Origin: Hyposmocoma kahamanoa
Taxonomy: Eukaryota > Arthropoda > Insecta > Lepidoptera > Cosmopterigidae
Assembly (NCBI RefSeq): GCF_003589595.1
Contig: NW_020653766.1
Location: forward strand, 2,040,313 to 2,104,312
Direction: 5' to 3'
Length of the DNA: 64,000 bases
Position 1 is the stretch's first letter, and the number at the start of each line of letters is the position of its first letter. The position numbers and the translations under genes are program-made. The notes below the pieces were generated by a model, which saw nothing but the letters and a program-made list of their open reading frames with translations, was not told where the DNA came from and ran no database searches. This document shows, piece after piece, positions 34,001 to 40,000 of this stretch.

Positions 34001-37000
34001 AGATTGGCAAATATTTACGTGACACTTTATTTTTAGATGTTTTCTGTTTTCTATTCTTAAATTTAAGTACATAATGTATTTGATGGTCAATTTAATCGTA
34101 AATAAATGGGAAACATGAGCATAGCCGTGTTTTAAATTCTACTCTACTTAGTAACTCAAATAATTTATCTAAAATCTTTTTCCTGTACTTATCTCACGCT
34201 AGATGGAGTCGGCACAACGTGTATTCTTCTTCCACTTTCCCCTATCAGCCTTAATTTCCATACTCATACCGTTCTTATCCATGTCATCTTTCACATCCAT
34301 CTTTTCTTTGGCCTTCCTCTCCCCTTATATCCATCTACAATCATACTAACAATCTTCTCGTAACATGACATTCTTCCCTCCGCATGACATGGCCATACCA
34401 CGCCAACCTATTACTCCTCATCTTTTTGGCCACTAGCACCACTTTCAAACTTCCCCTGATGTACTCATTTCTTATCTTATTTTTTCTCAAATAATTTATC
34501 TAAAATATTATTTCTTATATTGCATCCGTACACAGAACAGTTTATGTTCGCCATTAAGAACTTGCTGAACGTATTCAAAAATATTTTAAAACACACACAA
34601 GTCAACTCTTAGCGCTCGATCCGGCAAAATAAGCGTGTTTGTAAGAAGCAGCCCACGCCGCCCGATTCCCCTCGAGTTACTCACCGTTGGTCTGCCATAA
34701 GTACAGTCAAGAGCACATCAAGCTTGACACTTTGGACCGTTCTTATTGCAAGCGGCATAGAGTTAAATTTAAACCTTTAGCGTCGAGCTTGACGTGCTCT
34801 TGACCCTGTACATTCGACGCGCAATCGCTTGCTCATACCATCTCCGTCTGGCACCGGTAAAGAACTCGAAACGTTGATTTGTTTGTGTGAACATTAGAAC
34901 TCGATGAATTATTAAATTCCTGGCATTTCACTAACAGGGAAGACGACCGCGTATCCCACTACATCATCAACCGGGTGGTCTCAGCTGACGGGACAACGCG
35001 CTACCGAATTGGTGACCAACTTTTCACCGACATGCCGGCACTGTTGGCGTTCTACAGACTGCACTACCTGGACACAACACCGCTAGTACGTCCATTGTCG
35101 CATTCGGCTGTTAACAACGTGTCCCAGCCGCCGAACCAGCCGCATCAAGTTTTGGAGATTGTTACCGCGAAGTTTGACTTCCATGGTAGCGGGGTAAGTG
35201 TGATTTTTAGTTAACTTATTTATTTAATAGGAACACTGGTTGTATACAAGTTGATTGAAACAAAATTAGTATAGATTCACTGTGTCCCGGCCATAGGCAT
35301 GCAAACGTCGCATATGAAACTAAATACTGTCGCAACTCAAAACTTACGGAATTGAGAAGATACTATTTGTATACAAAATTTTGGCGTCACTACTTTTTGG
35401 CTCAGACAATACTGATTTAAACCACCTAACATTAAATTTATTCTGATAGGTTCCGTCGGTATGAAGTAACACACACTTCGCAATGTGAGTAATTCACTCT
35501 ACTCATCAAATACAAAAATTGTAATTATAAAAAAAACAGATAAAAAAATGCATGCGATAATAATATTTGAGTAACATCAAACCGTGCTGAATGGTCCTCT
35601 TATCGTTGCCAATAAAGAAAAAAAAGGATCGAGGAATATCGGCTGATAAATAACGTATTGATTCTGTCAATTTAGATTATTGCAACAAGACAGAACTGTC
35701 ATTAATATTATGGTATAATAACATTACACTGAATAGTGTAATGTCAGAATTGACAGCATGTTAGCGAAAATAATTATTTTTCTTATAAAAAATTAAATTT
35801 ACGGTGTTTTAAAAAAAGCTCTCAAAAGTTTGCAGAATTACATCGTCTATTCGCCAAGTTTTTTTGAAATCGGTTAACGGAAAGTGGGTGAAGTCAAATA
35901 AACCGGAGTCATCCACTAATTTCTCATCCTTAGAGCGTTTGTGCACTACGTCCGATTCGTATCAGGGCACTGTGATTCCCCCATAGGCCATAAATCAAAA
36001 AAAATCATTGGCTTATCCCGGTTAGATCAACTCACTAAGTTAGTAACTAGTTAACAAGCTTCCAAAAACTATAAATATCAATGTAATTAGGTCACGTTAT
36101 CATTCACTTTTGTGCATCGGAAGTGAGCGCATCGCGAGACTAATTATCACCACGTGTGAGTCATCGAAACTTAATCACTTTGTTTTTGAGTGTCACTATT
36201 CCAAATCAAGTGTTTACGTGTTGTGAAAGCATGGAGATCCAAGAGCATGGTATGTACTTTTATTATCAATTTTTTTTTATTTTTTTTATGCATATTTTTT
36301 TTATGTAATTTTTTTATTGAAGGCAGTTTTTTGGTGAAAATTTTTGGCATAACTTAATTTCCTTTAGACCTACAACTTTTGGCTGCGCTGAGCTGCACCT
36401 GAGGTATATGGTTTTTGAATAAGGAGTATGTCCTTATTAAGAGCTATAAGTTTCATTTGCATCTTGCTGCCTCTTCTTGGCTTAAAGGGGTGTCAAAGTA
36501 TGCATGTCCATAGTATTGAATTTTTAATTTTTTTTTAAGTTCAGCTTTCATATTGTTTTAGGTACATTTTTCAAATGTTCTGTATCGAGGATGACAATTT
36601 TTGATATTTGGCACTCTAAAGTGGGTAATCCAAATGAAAAAATGCAACACGTCCTGAGCACTTTGACCGAAACATCATCCCTTTCTGACGACATCGAAAA
36701 TATTGATTTAGAGACTTTAAGCCTTAAAATTAAGAATATTTGTAAACGAATTTCCCACTACTGGGCAAAGTCGAATCGTACTAGATCTAAATTCTTAGAA
36801 AAATATTCAGATTGGCTGCATGTCGTTGAAAATATTGATGTACAGCGAACTGAGTTACGTGTATCTCAGAGCTTTGACGAAGTTAAACCATCAACTTCTT
36901 CATCGCATGGCCGTCCGAGAATTAACTTTGACGACACCAGTAAACGTACAAAAAGGAGAAGATTGGCTAGTTTGTCTAACCAAGACCCTTCTCTTGTACA

Positions 37001-40000
37001 GTCATTGCTCAATGCGTCCGATAGCTTGTCTTGTCCTGAAATCGATTCTAGCGAAGTTTTATCGCTCATTGTTGAAGCTCAGTTAACTCGACATCAATAT
37101 ATATTAGTAAAGAAATTTATAGACAATAAGTTTTCAAAAACCATTTTCCCATCTTACCAAAGTGTCGTGGAATCTAAAAAACACTGTTATCCTTCAGATA
37201 TTACTGTTACAGAATCATCCGCCGAAGTCGAACTTCAAAGTTTATTAGATCATACTGCCAATCGGATTCTCAAGTCTCAAAAAGATGTTTTGGATAGTGT
37301 ACCTAATGAGTCTCTAGATAAGATATCTTTGATAGGGAAATGGGGTTTCGATGGCAGTACAAGGCATTCAGAATATAAACAGTGTTTTTCTGACTCCACT
37401 CTTGAAGACAGTAGCCTGTTTGTTACTTCGTATGTGCCACTTCAGCTTGTTTTGACAACAGATAACAAAGAAAATTCAGTAGTTTTGTGGAAAAATCCTC
37501 GTCCTTCATCAACTCGATACTGTCGTCCTATACGCCTCCGATATTTGAAGGAATCGACTGCAGTGTCAGTTGAGGAAGAAGCTCATTTTAAAGATAAAAT
37601 AAGGAACTTGCAGCCTACTGTTTTCAAGGAAGAAGATCGCGAATATCGCATTACTCATTGTTTGCAACTTACTATGGTAGATGGTAAAGTGTGTAATGCA
37701 CTTAGTGGTGTTTCTTCATCAAAATGTTTTATTTGTAACGCCTTGCCCAGTGAAATGAACAAAATTGACGAATGTTCAAATAAGGAAGTCGATGAGAGTA
37801 AATATGAATTTGGTTTATCACCTCTTCACGCGTTAATACGTTTTTTTGAATATTTTGTTCATGTCGCGTACAAATTAGATGTTAGGAAATGGCAAGCTAG
37901 GTCCGCTAATGACAAAATGCTTGTTGCTGCAAAAAAATCATATGTTCAGACTCAATTTAGAGAAAGATTAGGGCTTATAGTGGATAAGCCTAAAAGTGGC
38001 GGAAGCGGAACATCAAACGATGGTAATACAGCCAGGCGGTTTTTCTCGAATTCAGAAATTTCCGCTGAAATTACTGGGATCAAGAAGGATCTCCTAGATC
38101 GTTGCTGGATCATCCTTCAATGTTTAAATTCGGGATATAATATTAATAAGACGAACTTCGAAGAGTTCGCTTTAGAGACGGCTCGGCAGTTAGTTGCCGA
38201 GTATCCGTGGTATAACATGCCTGCTTCCGTTCACAAAGTTCTAATTCATGGTGCTAATGTTATAGATTACGGTTTGTTGTCAATCGGAGAGTTGTCTGAA
38301 GAAGCAGCTGAAGCGACTAACAAATACATCGAGTCTTTTAGAAAAAATCATACGCGTAAAATGAGTCGCATTGTGACCAACACAGATTTAGTAAATAGGC
38401 TGCTTCTTCATTCAGATCCCTTCATAACAGGTCTACGAAAGTTACCTGTTAAAAAAAAAGGTGTACTGTCAAAAGCTGTATTAGACTTGTTATGTATTTA
38501 AAGTTAATATTGTTGAGATTTAATGTATTTTGGTATAATTTGTGTTTTGTTTGTATTTTGTAAAATGAACTTTTTTATGTATTTTTATTGTTTTAATTTA
38601 TTCATTTGTGGTTATTGTTAATACAAATAATCATTATTTACACAGTTTTACCATTAAAAGTCGCAGTATAAAATGTTTTAGATACATCGTCTAAAAACAA
38701 AATTACTGCGAGACATTTTTACACCTAAATATTGTCAAATATTTTTTAAAATGTATAATTTTATTAATTTACGTTTACCTAATCATATTTTAACGTAATA
38801 AAATAAAAAAAAAATAATAATTTCGGAGTTACGTATTTATGACCGCCTTAGTATGGAGCGTGAATCACCGTGCAGGGGGTCTACTCTCGATCTACGTCCG
38901 ACATCCGTCCGATACAATTACTGCCAAATAAGCAATACTTGACCAAATGAAAAGACGCGTGATGCCAATGAAGCTTCATACTGGATACTTGTCTTTTAAT
39001 TTTGTCGAATATTACTTATTTGACAGTAATTGTTTCGGACGGATGTCGAGAGTAGACCCCCAGTTTCGAATCCGAGAAATGGGGGTTCGAAATATCACAA
39101 GCATAATTTAATCTCTAGGTGTACAAGCGATACCCGAAGTTGGTCCGAGTTTTCTAGATTTATATAATCTCGGATTCAGAACGATTAGGAATCGGATGCG
39201 CACAAAATAATGTGCGCAAAATAATACGCACTTAGAGGTGGAATACTTTCTTCAAACAATGGGAAATCGGTTCACAAATGGACATAGTTATGCAAACTAG
39301 AACCAACCCACAAAATGTCACTTATTAGATTTTTGCAAAAATAGTGTGAAGAAATAAATAGGTAAGTTATTTGAGACAAACAACGTGAGTTATGTGTAGC
39401 GTGGAGAATGATATAGGGAAACTATTATATTATATAGCAATAAATAGAAAACATTGTGTATCTTTTTATTTCGTTTACGAGAACCAGGTTCTAGTTTTCG
39501 TAATAAAAACGCTAAAGATCTACAGTACTTCAGTACGTGTGACATGAATCCATTTAGCATATTTAAAAAAATGCATTATATGAAGTTAAGCAGCATGGTT
39601 CTTTTTAGCTATTATAAGTTACTTATTTAGGGTTGGTACCCTGAAAGACTTTTATTTTCTTTGGCTTGGTATATTGCCAGGACCTTTTGTGAGCGGGTAA
39701 AGGACACGTCTGGTGTTCTACCTAAATACATAACTCAATTTCACTCGAGGTGTGTTGTTAAAAATACAAATTCAACTTGTTTTTTTTAATTGATAATGGA
39801 AAGAAAAGAACTGAACTACGGGGCCCGAAACACGATTGAATGATGAATTACTTTGCTTCTACTTTTCACCGCAAAGCCCATTCAAGCACGATATAATTTC
39901 GCCTTAAGTGTCGACACAACCTCAAATGGCTTTAATTGATTGCGCATAACAGTGAAAGTGTTAAACAGTGATAGTAAAACTGAGGATATGCACTTATTAC

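Follow-up and report, generated by a model that had tools for sequence, protein, structure and literature searches.

HzTransib of Helicoverpa zea (structures 6pqn-6pr5) has been reported to be functional and to use hairpin chemistry (PMC6941560, PMC8355894). The element that we describe here in Hyposmocoma kahamanoa encodes a transposase of the same family, with the same predicted fold and the same DDE and zinc residues, but the two proteins share 41% identity in the fold alignment and activity of the H. kahamanoa element is predicted only. With the RAG1 core and RAG1-like transposons (ProtoRAG), the element has in common CAC-first heptamers, 5-bp duplications, and a RAG1-like fold; it differs from ProtoRAG in having one long gene only and in that a 12/23 signal pair is not established. 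The closest named protein among 120 relatives listed of 1,019 is Drosophila ananassae LOC123257406, with 57% of residues identical across 84% of the query. Kapitonov and Koonin describe autonomous Transibs as typically present in one or few copies, often damaged (PMC4411706). A published table lists, for the moth Helicoverpa armigera, 188 copies of Transib distributed over 40 sequences, with 32 being full-length (PMC7764229), so that the copy number found in H. kahamanoa is not, as such, unheard of. Drosophila Transib1 is reported to have invaded D. melanogaster in 2013-2016, as dated from archived samples, with D. simulans named as the donor (PMC12230796). The H. kahamanoa burst is of this known kind and Transib1 is its precedent, likewise a Transib recently invading a species, as we propose here; our case differs in resting on one assembly, with many open-framed copies of apparently older average age.

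We are highly confident that the element, a cut-and-paste transposon, belongs to the Transib superfamily and multiplied across the H. kahamanoa genome in one recent burst. In the window (the whole stretch of 64,000 nucleotides that was analysed), it occupies 35968..38872 on the forward strand (2,905 bp) and is bounded by the 5-bp duplication CAGGG on the left (35963..35967) and on the right (38873..38877), and the original prediction of a complete Transib proved exact to the base. The 5' terminal inverted repeat, CACTGTGATTC (35968..35978, forward strand), matches the 3' one, CACGGTGATTC read inward (38862..38872, reverse strand), at 10 of 11 positions, and the inverted terminal heptamers, CACTGTG and CACGGTG, each differ at one base from the RSS heptamer consensus CACAGTG. 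The element lies in an intron of Crk, on the same strand as the gene, with the SH2 exon upstream and the SH3 exon downstream, as had been predicted. Its insertion hit a palindromic high-copy repeat (38875..39061), recognized by its arms and by 40 of 40 scored genome places, of which about 30-40 bp remain left of the insertion.

The transposase gene would consist of two exons on the forward strand: a first coding exon of 19 nt, ATGGAGATCCAAGAGCATG (36231..36249), a T-rich intron (36250..36561, with GT at 36250 and AG at 36560-36561), and a second coding exon (36562..38501) that contains an uninterrupted 636-codon frame from the ATG at 36591 to 38501. Joined, the exons would encode 652 aa. The putative first exon is unchanged in 45 of 47 genome copies, and the donor GT and acceptor AG are present in all 47.

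By sequence profile and predicted fold, the protein is a Transib transposase with detectable kinship to RAG1, the enzyme by which human antibody genes are assembled. A single-sequence search gave HzTransib at E 2.8e-114 and RAG1 at E 0.54, with the Pfam RAG1 family at 0.0015, under the cut-off. A profile built from the window protein together with 27 of its relatives (28 sequences in all) placed the protein with HzTransib (6.6e-178), amphioxus RAG1L (1.6e-12), and vertebrate RAG1 (1e-8), not outside them. The AlphaFold model (pLDDT 83.1) found as its best fold match the hairpin-forming complex of HzTransib (41% identity, TMt 0.92), followed by RAG1 structures (E 1.1e-18). Alignment with relatives shows conservation of the zinc-site C, C, H, and H and of the predicted catalytic residues, all intact in the window copy; among the 120 relatives listed of 1,019 found, Asp 254 (37350..37352) is D in 120/120, Asp 364 (37680..37682) is D in 115/120 and N in 5, and Glu 574 (38310..38312) is E in 116/120 with a gap in 4. 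Alignment with both the genome copies and these relatives also revealed two private changes of the window copy, G258R (37362..37364; G in 113/118 relatives, R in none) and K581E (38331..38333; K in 104/116, E in none). Because both lie near catalytic residues and alter charge, we suggest that the window copy is slightly damaged and a weak activity candidate despite its open frame, contrary to its proposal as a good one.

Nor is this copy special in being intact. The internal coding stretch occurs in at least 126 copies in the assembly (control 0), together with 117 exact 30-bp 5' ends and 127 exact 38-bp 3' ends (reversed-pattern controls 0 for both). The contigs up to C1063 contain 86 5' ends; 77 of them have a partner 3' end, at a span of 2,895-2,925 bp in 67 of the 77 cases. 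The full-length search yielded 40 scored copies (the best 40 of 174 candidates), each covering query positions 1-2905, and all 40 share both termini exactly and have different flanks; 38 carry perfect 5-bp duplications, or 45 of 47 once 7 more copies are added. These common termini, different flanks, and perfect duplications show that the ends of the window element are not due to chance. Of the 45 perfect duplications, 39 begin with C and 43 end with G, in line with the CNNNG form tabled for Transib (PMC7764229). The 47 copies read end to end (the 40 selected as best-scoring matches to the window copy, and 7 others) include 38 with an open frame, so that the statement that known insect Transib copies are mostly broken does not describe the copies read here.

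Empty sites were also found. When the window flanks were joined at one CAGGG, 40 of 40 scored places matched through the junction (3,549 first-look candidates); four of these were read, three with a single CAGGG and one with CTGGG, which confirms the 5-bp duplication at the window insertion. With the joined flanks of eight copies as one query, all 40 scored places were taken by the repeat at one copy, L010, for which empty sites were thus seen. For an insertion in unique sequence, L012, a search for an allelic empty site found only the filled site in the assembly; its target, read by eye as a sugar-transporter exon, had no Pfam or PDB support and this assignment was dropped.

The copies diverge from their majority sequence by ∼0.12%, mostly through private changes. 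At 2,815 sites (low-complexity tracts left out), the 47 copies average 3.3 changes each, and the 7 copies added beyond the best-scoring 40 average 4.1. Private changes make up 136 of the 145 distinct ones, and the counts fit one Poisson age (variance/mean 1.09). We consider it unlikely that a long-resident family with a steady trickle of jumps produced this pattern. In favor of such a trickle are the 9 changes common to 2 or 3 copies, which point to probable movement of at least two source copies, and the 9 of 47 copies with 0 or 1 change; yet a trickle does not sit well with a single Poisson age, and an old family should leave a tail of diverged ends. Allowing up to 3 mismatches in 38 bp raises the 3' ends from 127 to 136, and the 0.12% divergence alone predicts ∼6 of these 9, so that no older cohort is visible up to that level (8% divergence). 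Only 1 of 47 copies has no change (Poisson expectation, 1.7), which argues against ongoing jumping.

That near-identity was inflated by collapsed or gap-filled repeats is still less probable. The matching public assembly is graded medium quality, with a contig N50 of 0.059 Mb (PMC11373647, which also names a HiFi assembly of this species, JAVLVP000000000), and assembly error could account for part of the private changes. However, the flanks are distinct in all 40 copies checked and the target duplications match in 38 of these, no copy of the 47 contains an N, and the changes are evenly distributed over the length of the element (chi-square p 0.91), whereas consensus filling should thin them mid-element. 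A domesticated RAG1-like host gene, which the many open frames and the intact catalytic residues of the window copy might evoke, is scarcely conceivable given both ends, target duplications, empty sites, and >100 dispersed copies. Selection on the transposase is not firmly indicated among the copies, since the nonsynonymous:synonymous ratio of 49:24 is as expected by chance when transitions are weighted (p 0.36; unweighted, slightly low, p 0.02). A protein 99% identical to that of the window (P0002, on an assembled contig, among the 120 relatives listed of 1,019) probably lies outside the H. kahamanoa cohort, because its extra serine is absent from the majority protein and from 100 listed of the 126 internal segments.

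We read the recent single-cohort burst as a probable invasion that may already have peaked. By homology to HzTransib, transposase from a spliced two-exon message would bind both ends, nick at the CAC heptamers, and then form hairpins on the flanking DNA; the blunt-ended element released would insert by staggered joining at CRNYG targets, from which 5-bp duplications would result, and the window copy would be one such insertion, into a repeat within the Crk intron. The copy pattern speaks of past movement only, and current transposition activity is putative. The 5' end carries AAAAAAATC after 23 bp, and no clear nonamer was seen by eye at the 3' end. A subterminal CATAAAT, which starts at base 22 in one terminus and at base 32 in the other, resembled a 12/23-style offset, but 334 of 2,000 shuffles also reach this 10-bp shift, and it was not taken as a sign of such a pair. 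Among the open frames of at least 60 aa in the element, no candidate for a RAG2-like second gene appears: there is one long frame, and the two others (88 and 67 aa) overlap it; 371 bp of the element remain 3' of the transposase stop. As for viral carriers, 8 viral_contigs stretches matched a pattern, and none codes for a relative.

A literature search for papers combining Hyposmocoma and Transib found none. Our working scenario, for which the odds fall slightly short of even, is that the element recently entered the H. kahamanoa lineage, probably horizontally, rose in one pulse to >100 mostly open-framed copies within the Hawaiian radiation, and was afterwards silenced for the most part; the copies would now be an even-aged cohort, intact in appearance but silent. 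More than 100 copies of an apparent single cohort, 38 of 47 open-framed, stand against the one or few, often damaged copies described as typical of autonomous Transibs and form a natural series in which RAG1-family termini, target selection, and silencing can be studied. Every one of the >400 species of Hyposmocoma is described as a Hawaiian endemic (PMC11373647). It has been hypothesized that bursts of transposition fuel island radiations of this sort (PMC5012101), and comparing the insertions of this cohort among Hyposmocoma species offers a test of that idea.

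We identified in the window a complete DNA transposon of 2,905 bp (35968-38872) with CAGGG at each side, whose termini, read inward, are CACTGTGATTC and CACGGTGATTC. The element lies in sense orientation in an intron of Crk, since it is flanked by two exons on the plus strand, an upstream SH2 exon that matches Crk and a downstream SH3 exon that matches a Crk-like protein best, followed by GRB2 and other SH3 proteins. When joined, the Crk exons are identical to Crk of Hyposmocoma kahamanoa, apart from two of the exon joins and one stretch that is missing. The Crk region of this Hawaiian cosmopterigid moth has a ubiquitin-conjugating enzyme exon on one side (3290-3508, minus strand) and an LSM-domain frame on the other (62085-62420, plus strand), and a stretch at 56718-56798 matches a tRNA model with 35.7 bits, above the gathering score, which may represent either a tRNA gene or a SINE of tRNA origin. 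The transposase is encoded by an open frame of 636 codons, from the ATG at 36591 to 38501. Upstream of this frame stands a short candidate first exon, ATGGAGATCCAAGAGCATG (36231-36249), directly followed by GT, and the putative intron that begins there ends with AG at 36561. Joining this exon to the second one reproduced the 652-residue protein of the original prediction. The candidate exon is identical in 45 of 47 genomic copies, one of the other two having a stop within it, the GT and AG are retained in all 47, and by eye the residues upstream of the ATG are kept in two homologous proteins (P0008 and P0027), consistent with the exon join. We infer that the transposase may be spliced from two exons. 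The 12/23-type asymmetric ends described for some Transibs (PMC8355894) were looked for in the window element and could not be demonstrated.

Among solved structures, the top match of the protein was the Helicoverpa zea Transib transposase (HzTransib; E 2.8e-114), with amphioxus RAG1L second (6.9e-7) and RAG1 itself at 0.54 in this single-sequence search; with a 28-sequence profile, the three reached 6.6e-178, 1.6e-12, and 1e-8, respectively. The Pfam families RAG1 (0.0015) and DUF1280, a family of unknown function (0.00013), scored under their respective cut-offs. The AlphaFold model (mean pLDDT 83.1) matched the HzTransib hairpin-forming complex (41% identity, TMt 0.92), and RAG1 structures came next in fold, from E 1.1e-18. 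A protein search (E up to 1e-5) returned 1,019 homologues, and in the best 120 of these D254 is conserved throughout, D364 in 115 (N in the other 5), and E574 in 116 (a gap in the other 4); C379, C382, H548, and H553 are invariant wherever present. By alignment to known members, the first three residues would be catalytic and the last four would bind zinc. The closest homologue among the same 120 is 99% identical and encoded on a contig, and the closest named one is a Drosophila ananassae protein (57%).

The flanks are all distinct in the 40 copies first read, and perfect 5-bp duplications border 38 of these 40, or 45 of 47 with seven more copies drawn from 10 regions (L053 and L054, without a 3' end, and L058, at a contig edge, were excluded from later counts). 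In the two other copies, L030 and L041, one additional base separates the 3' end from a duplication of 5 bp, as if by a one-base slip in cutting or insertion. The 45 perfect duplications have C at position 1 in 39 cases, A or G at position 2 in 38, C or T at position 4 in 37, and G at position 5 in 43; the duplication of Transib MITEs is given as CNNNG in a survey of H. armigera (PMC7764229). When joined, the flanks of the window copy match across the junction at all 40 scored places out of 3,549 first-look candidates, with 86-97% identity and some slight differences in length, showing that the element inserted into a high-copy palindromic repeat (38875-39061, arms 85-89% complementary). Four of these empty sites were inspected, and three have a single CAGGG and one CTGGG. 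Paralogous empty sites, which are silent on polymorphism, hence support the earlier proposal that CAGGG is a true target duplication. The joined flanks of another copy, L010, match at 100% over 300 bp at four other places, one of which was inspected and has a single CACTG. By eye, a further copy, L012 (G000:C694:11394975-11397880), is inside an apparent sugar-transporter-type coding exon, which neither Pfam nor PDB confirmed; the assembly contains no empty allele of this insertion.

A genome search with the whole element gave 174 candidates, and the 40 scored all span query positions 1-2905. Exact matches numbered 117 for the 30-bp 5' end, 127 for the 38-bp 3' end, and 126 for an internal coding pattern, and the reversed-pattern controls gave 0 each. 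Positions were listed for the first 100 places of each pattern, and the pairing of ends covers contigs up to C1063. On these contigs, a 3' end lies within 6 kb for 77 of the 86 5' ends, and 67 of these 77 pairs span 2,895-2,925 bp; the remaining 9 5' ends and 22 of the 99 3' ends are unpaired. By simple scaling (67/86 of 117), about 90 copies with both exact ends and full length would be present genome-wide. The smallest paired spans are 1,191 and 2,125 bp, so the contigs to C1063 contain few short copies that have lost internal sequence but keep both exact ends.

Outside two low-complexity tracts, the 47 copies show 155 changes from the majority across 2,815 sites, or 0.00117 per site per copy. 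These copies contain no N bases, the changes are evenly distributed along the element (p 0.91), and 136 of the 145 distinct changes are private. The variance over mean of the change counts is 1.09, as for a single shared age, a spread that may be narrowed by the selection of 40 of the 47 copies by score against the window copy; the seven remaining copies average 4.1 changes. One copy is unchanged versus 1.7 expected from Poisson, so brand-new copies are not in excess. Allowing up to 3 mismatches, without indels, raised the count of 38-bp 3' ends only from 127 to 136, and relics up to 8% diverged in this end are thus nearly absent. At a Heliconius mutation rate of 2.9e-9 per site per generation, the cohort would be about 400,000 generations old; should assembly errors account for some of the changes, this figure is a maximum. 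On the coding strand, we counted 31 distinct G to A versus 14 C to T changes in the 47 copies (p 0.036), a weak bias possibly due to chance.

The transposase frame is open in 38 of the 47 copies, including one with an in-frame shortening to 624 residues, and broken in 9; the majority protein is encoded unchanged by 13. In the open copies of equal length, 49 nonsynonymous versus 24 synonymous changes do not differ from chance with transitions weighted (p 0.36), the ratio being slightly low unweighted (p 0.02). Relative to the majority, the window copy has 7 substitutions along its full length (set of 40) and 4 outside the low-complexity tracts (set of 47), the latter number being near the mean; it is set apart by where its changes fall, not by their number. 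Its protein carries G258R, L396S, and K581E, and G258 is four residues past D254 and K581 seven past E574. Among the 120 listed relatives, 113 of 118 have G at position 258 and none has R; at position 581, 104 of 116 have K, 11 have R, one has N, and none has E. HzTransib has N at the position equivalent to G258, so the site tolerates change; R at this position may harm activity, and the flagged copy likely carries damage.

Autonomous Transibs are described as usually present in one or few copies (Kapitonov and Koonin, PMC4411706), and HzTransib is reported to be active and to form hairpins on the flank (PMC6941560). Transib1 is described as having invaded D. melanogaster between 2013 and 2016 (PMC12230796), so recent Transib invasions are already known, and the H. 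armigera survey tables 40 Transib sequences, 32 of them full-length, with 188 copies (PMC7764229), so a high copy number is possible in moths. Our literature search found no paper combining Hyposmocoma and Transib, and the H. kahamanoa genome paper does not mention Transib in its main text. Because the copies are so even in age, ongoing activity seems less likely. Together, our results provide good support for a new Transib family that underwent a recent single-cohort burst, of which the flagged copy is one member and most copies read are still open-framed.
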